The notes beneath the pieces were generated by a model, which saw only the letters and a program-made list of their open reading frames with translations, was not told where the DNA came from and made no database searches. From an uncultured bacterium (GTDB lineage Bacteria; Hydrogenedentota; Hydrogenedentia; Hydrogenedentales; CAILVY01), in the NCBI GenBank assembly GCA_937951485.1, contig CALEDJ010000028.1:14547-78546 (forward strand): a stretch of 64,000 bases of DNA. The letters are read 5' to 3'. The first letter of the stretch is position 1, and each line of letters opens with the position of its first letter. This document shows positions 29,679 through 60,834 of this stretch, in pieces. The position numbers and the translations under genes were made by a program.

Positions 29679-29786
29679 AAGCCGCCTCCCCATGTCCTTT
29701 TAATCATACCATGAAATTGGCAAAAAGGGTAACACGTGAGGCTTTTGGTGCAGAAATGGATATGACGCCGCACCGATCTTGTAACC

Positions 29787-29830
29787 GTCATTGCGATCGG
29801 AGCGGCGCACTGCGCCGCTCCGCTGCCAGG
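29787..29830. repeat. GTCATTGCGATCG-type palindromic repeat, short copy
   Basis: GTCATTGCGATCG is followed by GGAGCGGCGCA and its near complement TGCGCCGCTCC. The opening 13 bases recur at 60732 in a longer copy of the same intergenic repeat class. A strong hairpin is expected in RNA from either strand. Confidence 0.55.
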
Positions 29831-37121: not shown

Positions 37122-38883
37122 CAGCACACCCAATGTTCGTTGCCACGCGATCATACCTGTGACGATCATGATAATCGGGACCGCGTTGTTCGGCCTTGGC
37201 GTCTGGCAGCGGTCGCACGCCTTCGGCGATGCCGGTCTCAGCATGGCCGGTTGGACAACCGCCGGCTCCGCAGTCACGGCCGCCAACTGGTATCGGGAAG
37301 GGGCGTGGCGGCTTCGCTTTGTGATGTACTGGGCGCCCGATTCCGTCGAATTGGATGCATTGGGACCACGAGAACCATACGTCTCCTTTCCGCCCGGCTC
37401 CATCATCCCAATCTATCTTCTCGCTAAACTGGCTCGACGCGATCCAACGCCCGCCATGGTGATGGGCTACAGCCTTTTCATTCATCTGATGACCACGCTG
37501 ACCCTGGGGATGCTGGCATATTGTGCGGCGCGTCAAATGAAACTGCGCCCCGGCATCGCGGGCATTTTTGCCATCGTGCCGATGGCGCTCTATCTATGGC
37601 TTCCGTCCCCGTTTTATGAGCATCAGATGGGCTATTTCTCCGACCAGGCCGTAATGCTGCCATTTGCGGCATGCCTGCTGGTGGAGGTGCTCCTGTGGGA
37701 CACCTCTGGCAAGATGCAGCGCCGATGTTTGCAGGGTTTACAGGCGGCGATACAGTTCTGGGGCGTATTCTCCGACTGGCTTTTTGTCTTTGTAGCGGCG
37801 TGTCTATGGCTTGTTCGCGCGCTGCGCGGCGACTTCGGCCCCAGGCCATTGCCTTGGCTGGGACGCGCCATCCGTTACTGGGCGCCGGCGGCGTTGGCGC
37901 TGGCGATCTACGCAGCCCAACTCTGGCACTTGGGCGCGTTCGAGGATGTTGTAAGCCGCTTTCAACTGCGCGCAGGCGTGGGGGAGGAGCGCAAGTACGC
38001 GGTGCAACGAGGTCACGACGCGTTTTCCTTCAGCGGCGCATATGGCGCGGGCACACGCTTCTGGCGACAACATATGAAGGACGGCTACGGCCGCCAAGGA
38101 CGGACCTTGATCGGCGTGACGCTGGCCGCCGTCGTCGTTTCCACATGCGCGATGGCTGGCCTGCGTCTGCGCAAAAAACCGATACCTTCCCCGTTGTCCC
38201 TGTGCGCATCCCTGGGATTTCTTGCCTTGGCCCCATGTCTGTTCTACTTGCTGGTGTTCCAGCAGCATTGCTCCTATTTCCTGCATGCCTTCACAGCGCT
38301 CAAATTTGCCCTTCCCATTGCGGTAGTTCCCTTCGCGGCGCTGCCCGCCGCTGTCGCGGCGCTGGCGGCGGCACGGATTCGCACACCCAGAGTAAAAGGG
38401 ACTCTGGAGTGGGGCATGGCCGGGCTGGCGCTGGCATGCACTGTAGGCTATCTGTGGACGCTGGCGCCGGCGCGCGGCGCGATCTACCGTGCACAGCCCA
38501 AGGACCACATCGCCCCGGCCCGATTCATCGGCGCGCACACCGGCTATAAGGATGTGGTCTTTTCCCCCGATCATGCCATCGCTGATCGCCCACCCCAGGT
38601 CATCGTCTATTCCTTCAAACAAGTTCATAAAATTGAAGAACTGTCAGACATCCTTAAAATCACCGACCGTATTGATAAGGATTTTACGCTGAATATCTTT
38701 CTTCGCAACGCTTCCACGCCGTTGACTGACAGACTACAGAAGATTTCGCAGCATGCGTCCGAACGCATCGAATACGAAGGGATGGTGCTGCTGAAGATGC
38801 CCCGAAATGCGTTCTACGCACTTGTATCCAACTTGGAGAACGCTCCGGACCCCGCGATAATGTCCAATGCAGGCGCAAGATAA
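37105..38883 (+). CDS. Polytopic membrane protein of unknown function, paralogue 2
   Basis: 592 residues, the same length and layout as the preceding protein: N-terminal helix, loop GAWRLRFVMYWAPDSVE, then PYVSFPPGSIIPIYLLAKLA, LYLWLPSPFYEHQMGYFSDQ, and a soluble tail with GAHTGYKDVVFSPD. I choose ATG 37105, which overlaps paralogue 1 by 17 bases; ATG 37060 is possible. Tandem duplication with divergence is evident. The last 70 bases overlap the convergent DUF2851 gene. Function unknown; lipid-linked sugar transfer is one possibility. Confidence 0.7.
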   Translation: MAISRDSTPNVRCHAIIPVTIMIIGTALFGLGVWQRSHAFGDAGLSMAGWTTAGSAVTAANWYREGAWRLRFVMYWAPDSVELDALGPREPYVSFPPGSIIPIYLLAKLARRDPTPAMVMGYSLFIHLMTTLTLGMLAYCAARQMKLRPGIAGIFAIVPMALYLWLPSPFYEHQMGYFSDQAVMLPFAACLLVEVLLWDTSGKMQRRCLQGLQAAIQFWGVFSDWLFVFVAACLWLVRALRGDFGPRPLPWLGRAIRYWAPAALALAIYAAQLWHLGAFEDVVSRFQLRAGVGEERKYAVQRGHDAFSFSGAYGAGTRFWRQHMKDGYGRQGRTLIGVTLAAVVVSTCAMAGLRLRKKPIPSPLSLCASLGFLALAPCLFYLLVFQQHCSYFLHAFTALKFALPIAVVPFAALPAAVAALAAARIRTPRVKGTLEWGMAGLALACTVGYLWTLAPARGAIYRAQPKDHIAPARFIGAHTGYKDVVFSPDHAIADRPPQVIVYSFKQVHKIEELSDILKITDRIDKDFTLNIFLRNASTPLTDRLQKISQHASERIEYEGMVLLKMPRNAFYALVSNLENAPDPAIMSNAGAR

Positions 38884-40289
38884 TGCGCGAGCGGACAGTT
38901 TGTGCACGAGGGATTGGAGGCACACCAGTCCTGGTGAATCTGCAAGAGTCCCTGCTGCAACTGGAAACTGGATTTCACGCCGGCCTCGTCATGGAAAAGG
39001 CGGGGCATCATGCGCTGCGTCAGATGGTTCTCCGGTTCAGGCGGCAGCGCACGAAAGAACGCCAGAATCTTTTCCTCACGGGACTGGTCACGGCGCATCC
39101 GCGCCAGCGCCAACGCCGCCGGTACGAACACGTTGCCGATGATAGATCGTATCCGGCCCGCGCCGATGGGCGCGGTGGGGCGTTCCATACGCTTGCCGGT
39201 CCACGTGCAGTGCTCCGACCAGAATCCCAGCGCCTTGGGGAAAAGCGCCTCGAATGCACGACGGCGCTGCAAAGGCGACGCGTCGCCACGCCAGACCTTT
39301 TCCAGCGACGCAACCAGACCATCGCTCGCGGTGCGCGCAATGAACAACGCGGACCCCGAAAGCCGCCGCTCCGGGTTATTGTTCGGGCGCACACCGATGC
39401 GACGCCATTCCAGGGGCAGGCTGCGCAATCCATCCAGCGCGTCGCGGCGGATCGCGCTCAGTCGCCCATAGTGCGGCGCGGTCGCCGAATCTTCAGGCAA
39501 CGATTCCGGCATCAGGCCGCCAATCTGCAGCAGCGCTGTTTCAAGGATCATCGGGTCCCGCTGCGCCAATTGCCGCGCCCGATCATAGGGCAGGTGCCGC
39601 GCGATGGCCCGGAAATGATGCTTGAAATGGGAAAAACCGCATGCGTACATGAACGCCTCGTACACGGCCTGGTCCATGCCCGCATGGTCCATGCGTTCGC
39701 GCATGGCGCGCGCTTTGTTCAGCATGCGCCATTCCCCCGCGAGGCGCAGCAAGTTCAACATCACGGGCGCGCCGAACCGCAGCACCAAATCGGCGCATTG
39801 CCCTGGATTGTCCGCGGTGCCCGCGTCTCTTTCGTCATTGGCGATCATCTCTGCAATCGCGCGCAGGTCAGGGCGAAGCAGCGGCCCTATTTCCAGCGTA
39901 GCCACCCTGCGTCCCGTGGCGGTCATCGCGGGCGTGTCCGGCCCGGCAGACAACACCACATGAAGAATCACCTGCTCATAGCGGGAATCCCGGTGATGCC
40001 CGTGGCTTTTCCAGTCGCCGGAATAGAGATGTACTTCCACGTCGCCGGAATAGAGCCGGTCATTAAATTCGATCTGCGCGCCCCGGAAATCCGGTCCATC
40101 CTGGCGGTTCCACCATCCCGGCGACACCACCCGGATACGTTGCCCCTCCGTCGTACACAGCCCTTCCGGGGGCAACAACTGGTCGTACCAGATGCCTTGC
40201 AGGATTTCCTCGCGGACCGGCGCGTCTTCCTCGCGCACCCCTGTCGGCGCAGGGCGCAGCAACGCGTATCGTTCCGAGAAAACAGCCAT
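38814..40289 (-). CDS. DUF2851 family protein
   Basis: 491 residues, soluble. It matches the DUF2851 pattern known from Bacteroidetes and relatives: N-terminal LLPPEGLCTTEGQRIRVVSP, GWWNRQDGPDFRGAQIEFND, GDVEVHLYSGDWKSHGH and RYEQVILHVVL, with a C-terminal Cys cluster (DWCASNPSCTNCPLAHYL) that may bind metal. The ATG at 40289 has GGAG six bases ahead. The GDVEVH and HxxH-like positions hint at a nuclease-like core, but the function is unknown. Its 3' end overlaps the membrane protein gene tail to tail by 70 bases. Confidence 0.82.
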   Translation of the reverse strand: MAVFSERYALLRPAPTGVREEDAPVREEILQGIWYDQLLPPEGLCTTEGQRIRVVSPGWWNRQDGPDFRGAQIEFNDRLYSGDVEVHLYSGDWKSHGHHRDSRYEQVILHVVLSAGPDTPAMTATGRRVATLEIGPLLRPDLRAIAEMIANDERDAGTADNPGQCADLVLRFGAPVMLNLLRLAGEWRMLNKARAMRERMDHAGMDQAVYEAFMYACGFSHFKHHFRAIARHLPYDRARQLAQRDPMILETALLQIGGLMPESLPEDSATAPHYGRLSAIRRDALDGLRSLPLEWRRIGVRPNNNPERRLSGSALFIARTASDGLVASLEKVWRGDASPLQRRRAFEALFPKALGFWSEHCTWTGKRMERPTAPIGAGRIRSIIGNVFVPAALALARMRRDQSREEKILAFFRALPPEPENHLTQRMMPRLFHDEAGVKSSFQLQQGLLQIHQDWCASNPSCTNCPLAHYLAPALDIIAGSGAFSKLDTSA

Positions 40290-40443
40290 CGCGCACTCCA
40301 GCACCTTGGGGCGCTGCTGCCAACGCCCCTTTGGCCTGTCTCTTTGCCGGCAAACTGCAACCCCCTCCGGATGGCAACCTCGCCTTCCGGAGGGGGCATT
40401 TTACACTATCGCATCTTTGCCGTTGCAGGAGATTCGGGATCCA

Positions 40444-40824
40444 TCATGAAGCCTGGACCACGAATTCTATCGGCGTCTGCATTATCCGACCCTTGATATT
40501 TACCGTGAGCAGTCCGCGAATGATGTATTGACCCGCATTGTCCAGCGGGTCCACGAAGGTCGCTTCCGCGAAGACGATGCAGCGGCCCTTGGTCACCGCG
40601 ACGCCCATACTCTCGAAAAGCGTCTGCAAGCCCTCGGCGTCCAGCGCTGCGGCGAAAGTGCCGCCTGTCTGGCCCGCCAACTGCTGCAATTCCGTGAAAT
40701 CAATACCCGTCCCAAGCCCGACGGAAAACACGGGGATTTCCGCAAGTTGGGCCTTGTCTATCACGCTCTGCATCGTACAATTATAAGAGGCGGTATCCTC
40801 GCCCTCTACACTAATTTCTGGCAA
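40444..40824 (-). pseudogene. Remnant of a VWA-domain protein
   Basis: 126 codons covering only the C-terminal half of a von Willebrand A domain: EGEDTASYNC, then VIDKAQLAEIPVFSVGLGTG, LQQLAGQTGGTFAAALDAEG and a beta-rich tail. The MIDAS strand (DxSxS) that should lie 80-100 residues upstream is missing, and the frame meets a TGA three codons before the only start (a TTG). The sequence beyond is unrelated and AT-richer. It therefore looks truncated by insertion or deletion at about 40825. Confidence 0.6.
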
Positions 40825-40963
40825 GGGGCTGTCTCAATCTTCTTGTCAGAGAGAGATCTTGCCTTCTCGCACACTCATTTGCGCCCAAAGTCCCCATGCG
40901 GCGATCCTTCCTCTCATTGCCCCCTTATCGCCATGATAAGCAACCCCAAGGCTTTCAGCCATC

Positions 40964-40992
40964 TTTATACCATGCTTTGCTATGGGTGTCAA
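40964..40992 (-). promoter_or_regulatory. Consensus sigma-70 promoter, left copy
   Basis: On the minus strand TTGACA (40992-40987), 17 bases, TATAAA (40969-40964). Transcription would start near 40957 and run through paired segments (GGCGAT with ATCGCC) towards the VWA remnant. No coding start with a good ribosome binding site follows. Confidence 0.65.
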
Positions 40993-41126
40993 GAAGAATT
41001 GAATGCTGGCCCGCGAATAAGGAACGCGGTTGGATACCGCATCTGCTTTTTCCCCACAGTAGATATGCCATCTTGTCACTTCCTCATTTGGAGTGCGCCC
41101 TTGCGACAAACAACAATGACAACAAA

Positions 41127-41169
41127 CTGCTTGCCCCCCGCCCACAGGCGTCCCCTTCAGGGCAAACAG
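41127..41169 (-). terminator. Long hairpin followed by T-rich sequence
   Basis: On the minus strand CTGTTTGCCC (41169-41160) pairs with GGGCAAGCAG (41136-41127), 9 of 10. It is followed by TTTGTTGTCATTGTTG. This would end the transcript from the promoter at 41407-41435 after about 280 bases. Confidence 0.4.
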
Positions 41170-41253
41170 TTCGCCACCCCCGTCCCCAAATAACAACACT
41201 CCACCCTTTCCCCCTCACCAGCAGTCTGAATATGCGTTTCCTTCAGACTGTTA

Positions 41254-41316
41254 TCACAGTCCCATCAGGGCCCGCAAGTCAGCGAGCAATCTACGCAACA
41301 GCCACAACATTTTCAT
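41254..41316 (-). CDS. 20-residue leucine-rich small ORF
   Basis: ATG at 41316, TGA at 41256-41254. AAGGAG lies only two bases ahead of the ATG, a close but possible spacing. The peptide begins MKMLWLLRRL and ends LMGL, with eight Leu, three Arg and one Asp: a cationic amphipathic helix. It follows a promoter and two hairpins (CGGCAC/GTGCCG and GCAAACG/CGTTTGC) and precedes a third (CAGTCTGAA/TTCAGACTG). It could be a type I toxin-like peptide or an attenuation leader; no downstream biosynthetic gene supports the latter. Confidence 0.35.
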   Translation of the reverse strand: MKMLWLLRRLLADLRALMGL

Positions 41317-41406
41317 TTCTCCTTATCCGTTTAAACCGCCAGTTATCAACGCAAACGCAGCACGTTTGCCGACTTGGAAATACGGCACCATCATGTGCCG
41401 TGGGTC

Positions 41407-41435
41407 TTTATAACATGCCTTCATCCACCTGTCAA
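41407..41435 (-). promoter_or_regulatory. Consensus sigma-70 promoter, right copy
   Basis: On the minus strand TTGACA (41435-41430), 17 bases, TATAAA (41412-41407). The start would be near 41400, giving a leader of about 84 bases before the 20-codon ORF. Both promoters in this region have the same TTCTTGACA context. Confidence 0.65.
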
Positions 41436-41694
41436 GAAAATGCCTCAATCAAGAATAATCGTTCCATTTGAACCGAGTGAAGTGATTATTCTCATAGCCC
41501 CGTCATTGGCAGCGAGGCGATGCCCTGCGCCGCCGAGTGAAGTAATCGGAAGCACATCGGATATCCAAGAAATGATGCCGGCGTTGTCTGCATTACGCGC
41601 ATATTTGCGGTCCGCGTGGAGAATGGGTATAACAGTTTCACACGCCAATGCAAGGCTTTTGGGCTGATGTCACACCGGAAAAAAGGATGCTGCG

Positions 41695-42675
41695 ATGGAA
41701 TATGTGCGGTTCGGCAAAACAGGGTTGTTGGTTTCAGAAGTGTGTCTGGGGACGATGACTTTCGGCAACGAAGCGGACGAGACGATGTCGCAGGCCATTA
41801 TGGACCGTGCCCTGGAGTTGGGCATCAATTTCTTTGATTCGGCCCACAACTATAACAAAGGCGAGACGGAGCGCATCGTGGGGCGTTGGATGGGGTCTCA
41901 TCGCCATGAGATTATTCTCACCTCAAAGGTGTTTTTTCCTGCCGGCGGCGGACGCAATGACCAGGGATTATCCCGCCGGAATATTCTGATGGCGGTCGAG
42001 GAGTCGTTGCGTCGCCTGCAAACGGACTATATTGACATTCTTTATCTGCATCATTGGGACGAGCATGCGGATATCGAACAGTCCCTTTCAGCCGTGGACG
42101 ACCTGGTGCGGCAGGGAAAGGTGATTTACTGCGGCGTGTCGAATTTTGCGGCCTGGCAGACAATGAAAGCCATTGCGACGGCAGACCGCCGTAACTATCC
42201 GCCCATCGTGTGCATGCAGCCGATGTACAGCCTGCTGAAACGCCAGGCCGAGGTGGAGTTGTTTCCCCTGGCGGCGCATGAGGGCCTGGCAGTGTGCCCT
42301 TACAACGCCATCGCAGCCGGCGTACTCACGGGCAAATACTTGGAAGGGGGAAAGGGCAGAATTACCGAAACGGAAATGTACCGCCAGCGCTATGCGAATC
42401 CGCAATATGTGACAATCACGCGGCGTTTCGTGCGGTATGCAAGGAAAAAAGGCCTGTCGCCGGCGGCACTTGCGGCGGCCTGGGTGATGACGCATCCGAT
42501 AGTGACCTCCACCATTCTGGGAGCGCGAACGCTGGAACAGTTCAACGATACGCTGGCGTGTCTGGATATCCGGCTGACCGCCAGGCAGCGCATGGAAATC
42601 ACCCGATTATCCGTGGAACCCCCGCTGGCCACCGACCGAGAACCGATGGACGCCATGAAAACGCGCGGCTGGTAG
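41695..42675 (+). CDS. Aldo/keto reductase
   Basis: 326 residues, NADPH-dependent barrel enzyme. The catalytic tetrad is visible: Asp48 and Tyr53 in FFDSAHNYNKGETE, Lys78 in LTSKVF, His119 in LYLHHWDE. The cofactor end has STILGARTLEQFNDTL. Pattern resembles the YajO/general-stress-protein-69 branch. Substrate unknown. It converges with the glycine-rich protein gene with a 1-base gap. Confidence 0.9.
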   Translation: MEYVRFGKTGLLVSEVCLGTMTFGNEADETMSQAIMDRALELGINFFDSAHNYNKGETERIVGRWMGSHRHEIILTSKVFFPAGGGRNDQGLSRRNILMAVEESLRRLQTDYIDILYLHHWDEHADIEQSLSAVDDLVRQGKVIYCGVSNFAAWQTMKAIATADRRNYPPIVCMQPMYSLLKRQAEVELFPLAAHEGLAVCPYNAIAAGVLTGKYLEGGKGRITETEMYRQRYANPQYVTITRRFVRYARKKGLSPAALAAAWVMTHPIVTSTILGARTLEQFNDTLACLDIRLTARQRMEITRLSVEPPLATDREPMDAMKTRGW

Positions 42676-60731: not shown

Positions 60732-60834
60732 CATTGCGATCGTAGCGAAGCGCAACGCGGCAGGATGGATAAACCATGCGCCTCGGACTGCTTCGCTCAG
60801 CGGCGCAACGCGCCGCACCGCTCGCAATGACGAA
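60732..60834. repeat. GTCATTGCGATCG...CGCTCGCAATGAC palindromic repeat
   Basis: About 100 bases. The ends GTCATTGCGATCG and CGCTCGCAATGAC are imperfect inverted repeats, and internal GC-rich arms pair (CGGCGCAACGCGCCG). This class of intergenic palindrome is widespread in several phyla. A shorter relative is at 29787-29830. Confidence 0.6.

Follow-up and report, generated by a model that had tools for sequence, protein, structure and literature searches.

We found that a gene-poor locus in the window (the whole stretch of 64,000 nucleotides that was analysed) carries two near-ideal promoters, a group of perfect hairpins and a 20-codon open reading frame (ORF). As the best single reading, which we hold tentatively and rate as somewhat short of probable, we propose that the locus is a lineage-specific short transcription unit, an mRNA for a small peptide. 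This reading is preferred because the promoters are rare and paired and their motif is enriched across the order, because perfect promoters elsewhere in the order precede genes, because the hairpin density and the folding of the right unit stand out, and because the ORF has gene-like codons and tandem stops and the neighbouring VWA gene is truncated.

The locus lies in a genome of 4.55 Mb. On its right is an aldo/keto reductase (AKR) gene (41695-42675, + strand), and on its left is the C-terminal remnant of a VWA-domain gene (40444-40824, − strand), followed by a DUF2851 gene (38814-40304, − strand) whose protein has its nearest named relatives in Candidatus Hydrogenedentota. When synteny was followed via DUF2851, the AKR and VWA genes were not adjacent to it in the relatives compared. 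In addition, the 117-aa ORF at 40846-41199 and the other ORFs of the locus had no Pfam or NCBIfam match, and their codon scores were like those of non-coding DNA.

The promoter pair

The original prediction of two perfect leftward promoters 443 bases apart was borne out. Both the right promoter (TTGACAGGTGGATGAAGGCATGTTATAAA, 41407-41435) and the left promoter (TTGACACCCATAGCAAAGCATGGTATAAA, 40964-40992) lie on the − strand, match TTGACA-N17-TATAAA exactly and have an extended −10 element, with ATGT and ATGG before TATAAA, respectively. TTC stands 5′ of each. The two promoters are identical at 25 of 34 bases (74%); the common bases are mainly the boxes, TTC, GCATG before the −10 and GA, and the likeness stops there. 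Neither was reported by the standard promoter scan, since that scan accepts the second hexamer only with T as its sixth base.

The exact pattern occurs four times in the genome, whereas the reversed-pattern control gave none. Two of the four matches form the pair at this locus, on the same strand and 443 bp apart, and we estimate that chance would place two of four random sites this close on the same strand in about 6 of 10,000 cases. Furthermore, in 68 genomes of the order there were 93 matches vs 15 for the controls; therefore, the majority of these matches are probably genuine promoters. A close promoter pair was absent from all other genomes of this set.

The right unit and its short ORF

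The right promoter is followed on the − strand by three perfect hairpins. The 5′ hairpin has a 7-bp stem, ACGGCAC/GTGCCGT (41382-41401), and sits at the predicted transcript start; the second has a 7-bp stem, GCAAACG/CGTTTGC (41351-41369), and the third a 9-bp stem, CAGTCTGAA/TTCAGACTG (41222-41250). The fold of the transcript gave a long terminator-like stem at about 41121-41175 (− strand), followed by the T-rich stretch TTGTTGTCATTGTTGTTTGTC. Thus, all four hairpins described earlier are present, including the last with its T-rich end. The T-rich tract is interrupted (a poor U-tract), and this stem was not among the terminators listed by the terminator scan.

Three perfect stems of at least 7 bp per 290 nt were reached at only 0.27% of window positions. 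In addition, the RNA from 41408 to 41120 folds at −105.9 kcal/mol (z = −3.5 vs shuffles). In a sliding scan the opposite strand of the region folded as strongly as the transcribed strand (z about −3.9), so folding does not single out one strand; this is expected, since the hairpins are palindromic.

The ORF (MKMLWLLRRLLADLRALMGL, 41254-41316, − strand) has 20 codons, or 18 from the second ATG, and ends with TGA, directly followed by an in-frame TAA at 41251-41253. As predicted, it is preceded by the Shine-Dalgarno sequence AAGGAG (41319-41324, − strand), which is spaced 8 nt from the second ATG (41310) and 2 nt from the first (41316), and it includes eight Leu and three Arg. Its codon score was 0.35 (genes, 0.32; spurious short ORFs, −0.03). 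The signals expected of a small-protein gene, namely a Shine-Dalgarno sequence, a stop and gene-like codon usage, are thus all present, but the support from codon usage is weak, as 7.4% of spurious short ORFs reach the same score. Meanwhile, the window has seven AAGGAG-N4-9-ATG sites, three of which, including the present one, begin ORFs of 15-60 codons; therefore, the Shine-Dalgarno sequence alone is weak evidence. The peptide had also been described as amphipathic, which our analysis did not support: its hydrophobic moment is ordinary and is reached by 30% of shuffled peptides.

From the computed features (the promoter sequences and their rarity, the hairpins, the ORF signals and the truncated neighbour) we infer how the unit would be expressed, from transcription and its termination to translation, and what the peptide may do. 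RNA polymerase with the main sigma factor would start near 41400 from the near-ideal extended promoter and make an mRNA of about 280 nt, and transcription is likely for the right unit at least. The two stable hairpins would protect the 5′ end, a basic, leucine-rich peptide of 18-20 residues would be translated from the strong Shine-Dalgarno sequence, and the right transcript would end at the GC-rich stem near 41121-41175. The peptide would most likely associate with the membrane.

Several observations stand against the short-mRNA reading, namely the weak codon evidence, the interrupted U-tract, the equal folding of the opposite strand and the lack of DNA or peptide homologues in the 68 genomes of the order, phages and plasmids. 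The DNA of the unit had no relative in the 67 other genomes of the order or in a class-wide search, where only dispersed-repeat pieces matched, and it had no homologue in phages or plasmids. Similarly, an exact-pattern search of viral contigs and a DNA search of its own genome gave nothing beyond dispersed-repeat pieces. For the peptide, only the window itself appeared below E = 0.6 in the 68 genomes, and neither Pfam nor NCBIfam gave a match up to E = 10. It should be noted that the family is represented in the comparison set by just two further genomes, both of another genus; therefore, the missing conservation does not count strongly against function. The unit may be young or decaying.

The broken VWA gene, the repeats and alternative readings

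The original prediction placed the locus where a VWA gene has been truncated, and the homologues agree with this. In three of them (L013, L015 and L016) the open frames have roughly 700-980 residues, and the G.D(T/S)S motif is deep within the domain, preceded by about 340-500 open-frame residues. The remnant in the window starts at this mid-domain motif (GEDTAS), so that the N-terminal part is missing relative to the homologues. The remnant has 126 codons without a stop and gene-like codon use, and thus the break looks recent.

The left promoter would read into this remnant, and its transcript would end at a very stable hairpin between the remnant and DUF2851 (40361-40396, z = −6.6), which is probably a bidirectional terminator. 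The left transcript folds no better than shuffles (z = 0.02), and the GGCGAT/ATCGCC pairing proposed for it is not above chance. Thus, the idea of strongly expressed structured RNAs held only in part: it agrees with the promoter statistics and, in the right unit, with hairpin density and folding, but the left transcript shows no such excess of folding.

Dispersed repeats lie on both sides of the right unit. One, of the CAATGACGGGGCTATG family, is upstream of the right promoter (41461-41580) and has copies elsewhere in the genome; the core of this family had 19 matches with up to two mismatches, and the control had none. The second repeat (41011-41098) lies between the right unit and the left promoter, with copies in L002 and L006 and a 34-nt piece in another family (L026). 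The CAATGACGGGGCTATG repeats are palindromic, resembling REP-type elements, and are also found at 60766-60832 and 29785-29818 of the window and in L003, L004, L005 and L007. Arrival by insertion, as suggested earlier, is plausible, because the VWA N-terminus is lost exactly here and repeats flank the unit, although an empty site (the locus without the insert) was not found. A candidate insertion-sequence end at 40825 (GGGGCTGTCTCAATC) was rejected, because the genome has no other copy of it that is exact or has one mismatch, and its two-mismatch matches are scattered.

The chief rival reading, which we consider unlikely and yet the most serious, is that strong promoters and a leader were left behind when their genes were deleted as the VWA gene broke and repeats built up, and that they have no selected function now. 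The adjoining truncated gene, the repeats on both sides, the unconserved DNA of the unit and the other ORFs without a Pfam or NCBIfam match all fit such debris. However, decay should have eroded the promoters, the three hairpins, the Shine-Dalgarno sequence and the ORF, and all of these are still perfect.

It is less probable still that the locus makes a non-coding small RNA with functional hairpins, in which the ORF is incidental. Hairpin density, the folding of the transcript and a G-rich transcribed strand would suit such an RNA, but the good Shine-Dalgarno spacing, the gene-like codons and the tandem stops speak against it. Rfam gave no match at the gathering score for the locus (the best match below it was the MAT2A 3′UTR stem-loop, E = 0.11, on the other strand). 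The 6S RNA of the genome was located elsewhere, by its only covariance-model match (G000:C32:74874-75058), and a literature search on small RNAs in Hydrogenedentes found nothing relevant. A new class of ncRNA had also been suggested; such a class would need a conserved, covarying structure in several genomes, and the DNA is unique to its host among the 68 genomes of the order and offers neither conservation nor covariation to test.

We regard as improbable a more specific version of the short-mRNA reading, in which a lineage-specific small gene was recently born at a site where repeat-associated rearrangement had broken a gene. The site would have gained two near-ideal promoters, one of which would now drive a structured mRNA that arose de novo; its peptide of 18-20 residues might act in regulation or at the membrane. 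Should the locus be expressed as RNA and peptide, it would illustrate how a very small orphan gene can arise where DNA has been rearranged, in a little-studied bacterial lineage; if it is not expressed, it would show promoter remnants and hairpins piling up at broken genes.

Amino-acid attenuator leaders of the leuL type have a Leu-rich short ORF followed by competing hairpins, and the locus looks similar in both respects. Eight of its 20 codons are Leu, and the 5′ arm of the third hairpin could pair alternatively with GACTGT over the ORF stop, as read from the sequence. The CAGTC arm (41246-41250) thus has two possible partners, one upstream across the stop codon and one downstream, and the fold gives the downstream pairing. 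Nevertheless, a leader peptide with mutually exclusive hairpins and a terminator, left from a lost downstream gene, is very doubtful: there is no run of Leu codons, no biosynthetic gene or operon downstream, no clean U-tract terminator and no leader match.

Type I toxin mRNAs of the Ibs, TisB and Ldr type code for very short, leucine-rich and mostly hydrophobic peptides behind a structured leader. The size, leucine content and 5′ leader of the present unit resemble them, but a membrane toxin silenced by an antisense RNA, as proposed earlier, is the least credible reading, for a 9-of-12 consensus scan found no + strand promoter-like site at 41100-41440 (a weak or atypical promoter could escape it), the peptide has several charged residues and no distinctive amphipathicity, and neither a family match (Pfam and NCBIfam, up to E = 10) nor relatives were found. 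Neither a toxin nor a new RNA class can be claimed on this evidence.

Genes behind perfect promoters in the order

The short-mRNA reading can be compared with other perfect promoters of the order. We read the loci behind 20 of them and two other sites in the host genome, and most pointed into genes, whose identities are our reading of the translations. For instance, one promoter is upstream of a recA-like coding sequence (L044). The closest known layout is that of bacterial small-protein genes (<50 aa, monocistronic, with a strong sigma-70 promoter), since a promoter, a Shine-Dalgarno sequence, a short ORF and a hairpin terminator are also found at our locus. Similar layouts occur in L058 and L060, where perfect promoters at 1500 are followed by small ORFs (about 44 residues) that carry CxxC and HxDC motifs and look like monocistronic small-protein ORFs. 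In contrast, the peptide of our locus has no homologue and is far shorter.

Twelve of the loci read (L008, L042, L045, L046, L047, L050-L055 and L057) form one promoter class that is conserved across the order, with the promoter near 1500 and the pattern GG(A)ATTGC-N8-TTCTCTA-TTGACAC-N11-GGCTATGCTATAAA. This promoter lies about 250 nt upstream of a long ORF, and the leader between them is poorly conserved; one of the ORFs has fn3 and InlB-type repeats. In addition, two genomes (L048 and L049) have a common perfect promoter at 1500 and then a short ORF (MKHMRPVTRKPALSQISNFEVFKEFL..., about 43 residues) that looks like a peptide precursor. Meanwhile, in L009 about 190 nt of non-coding DNA with a T-rich end separate a perfect promoter from a sugar-transferase-like gene, and this stretch (1500-1740) may be a small RNA or a long leader.
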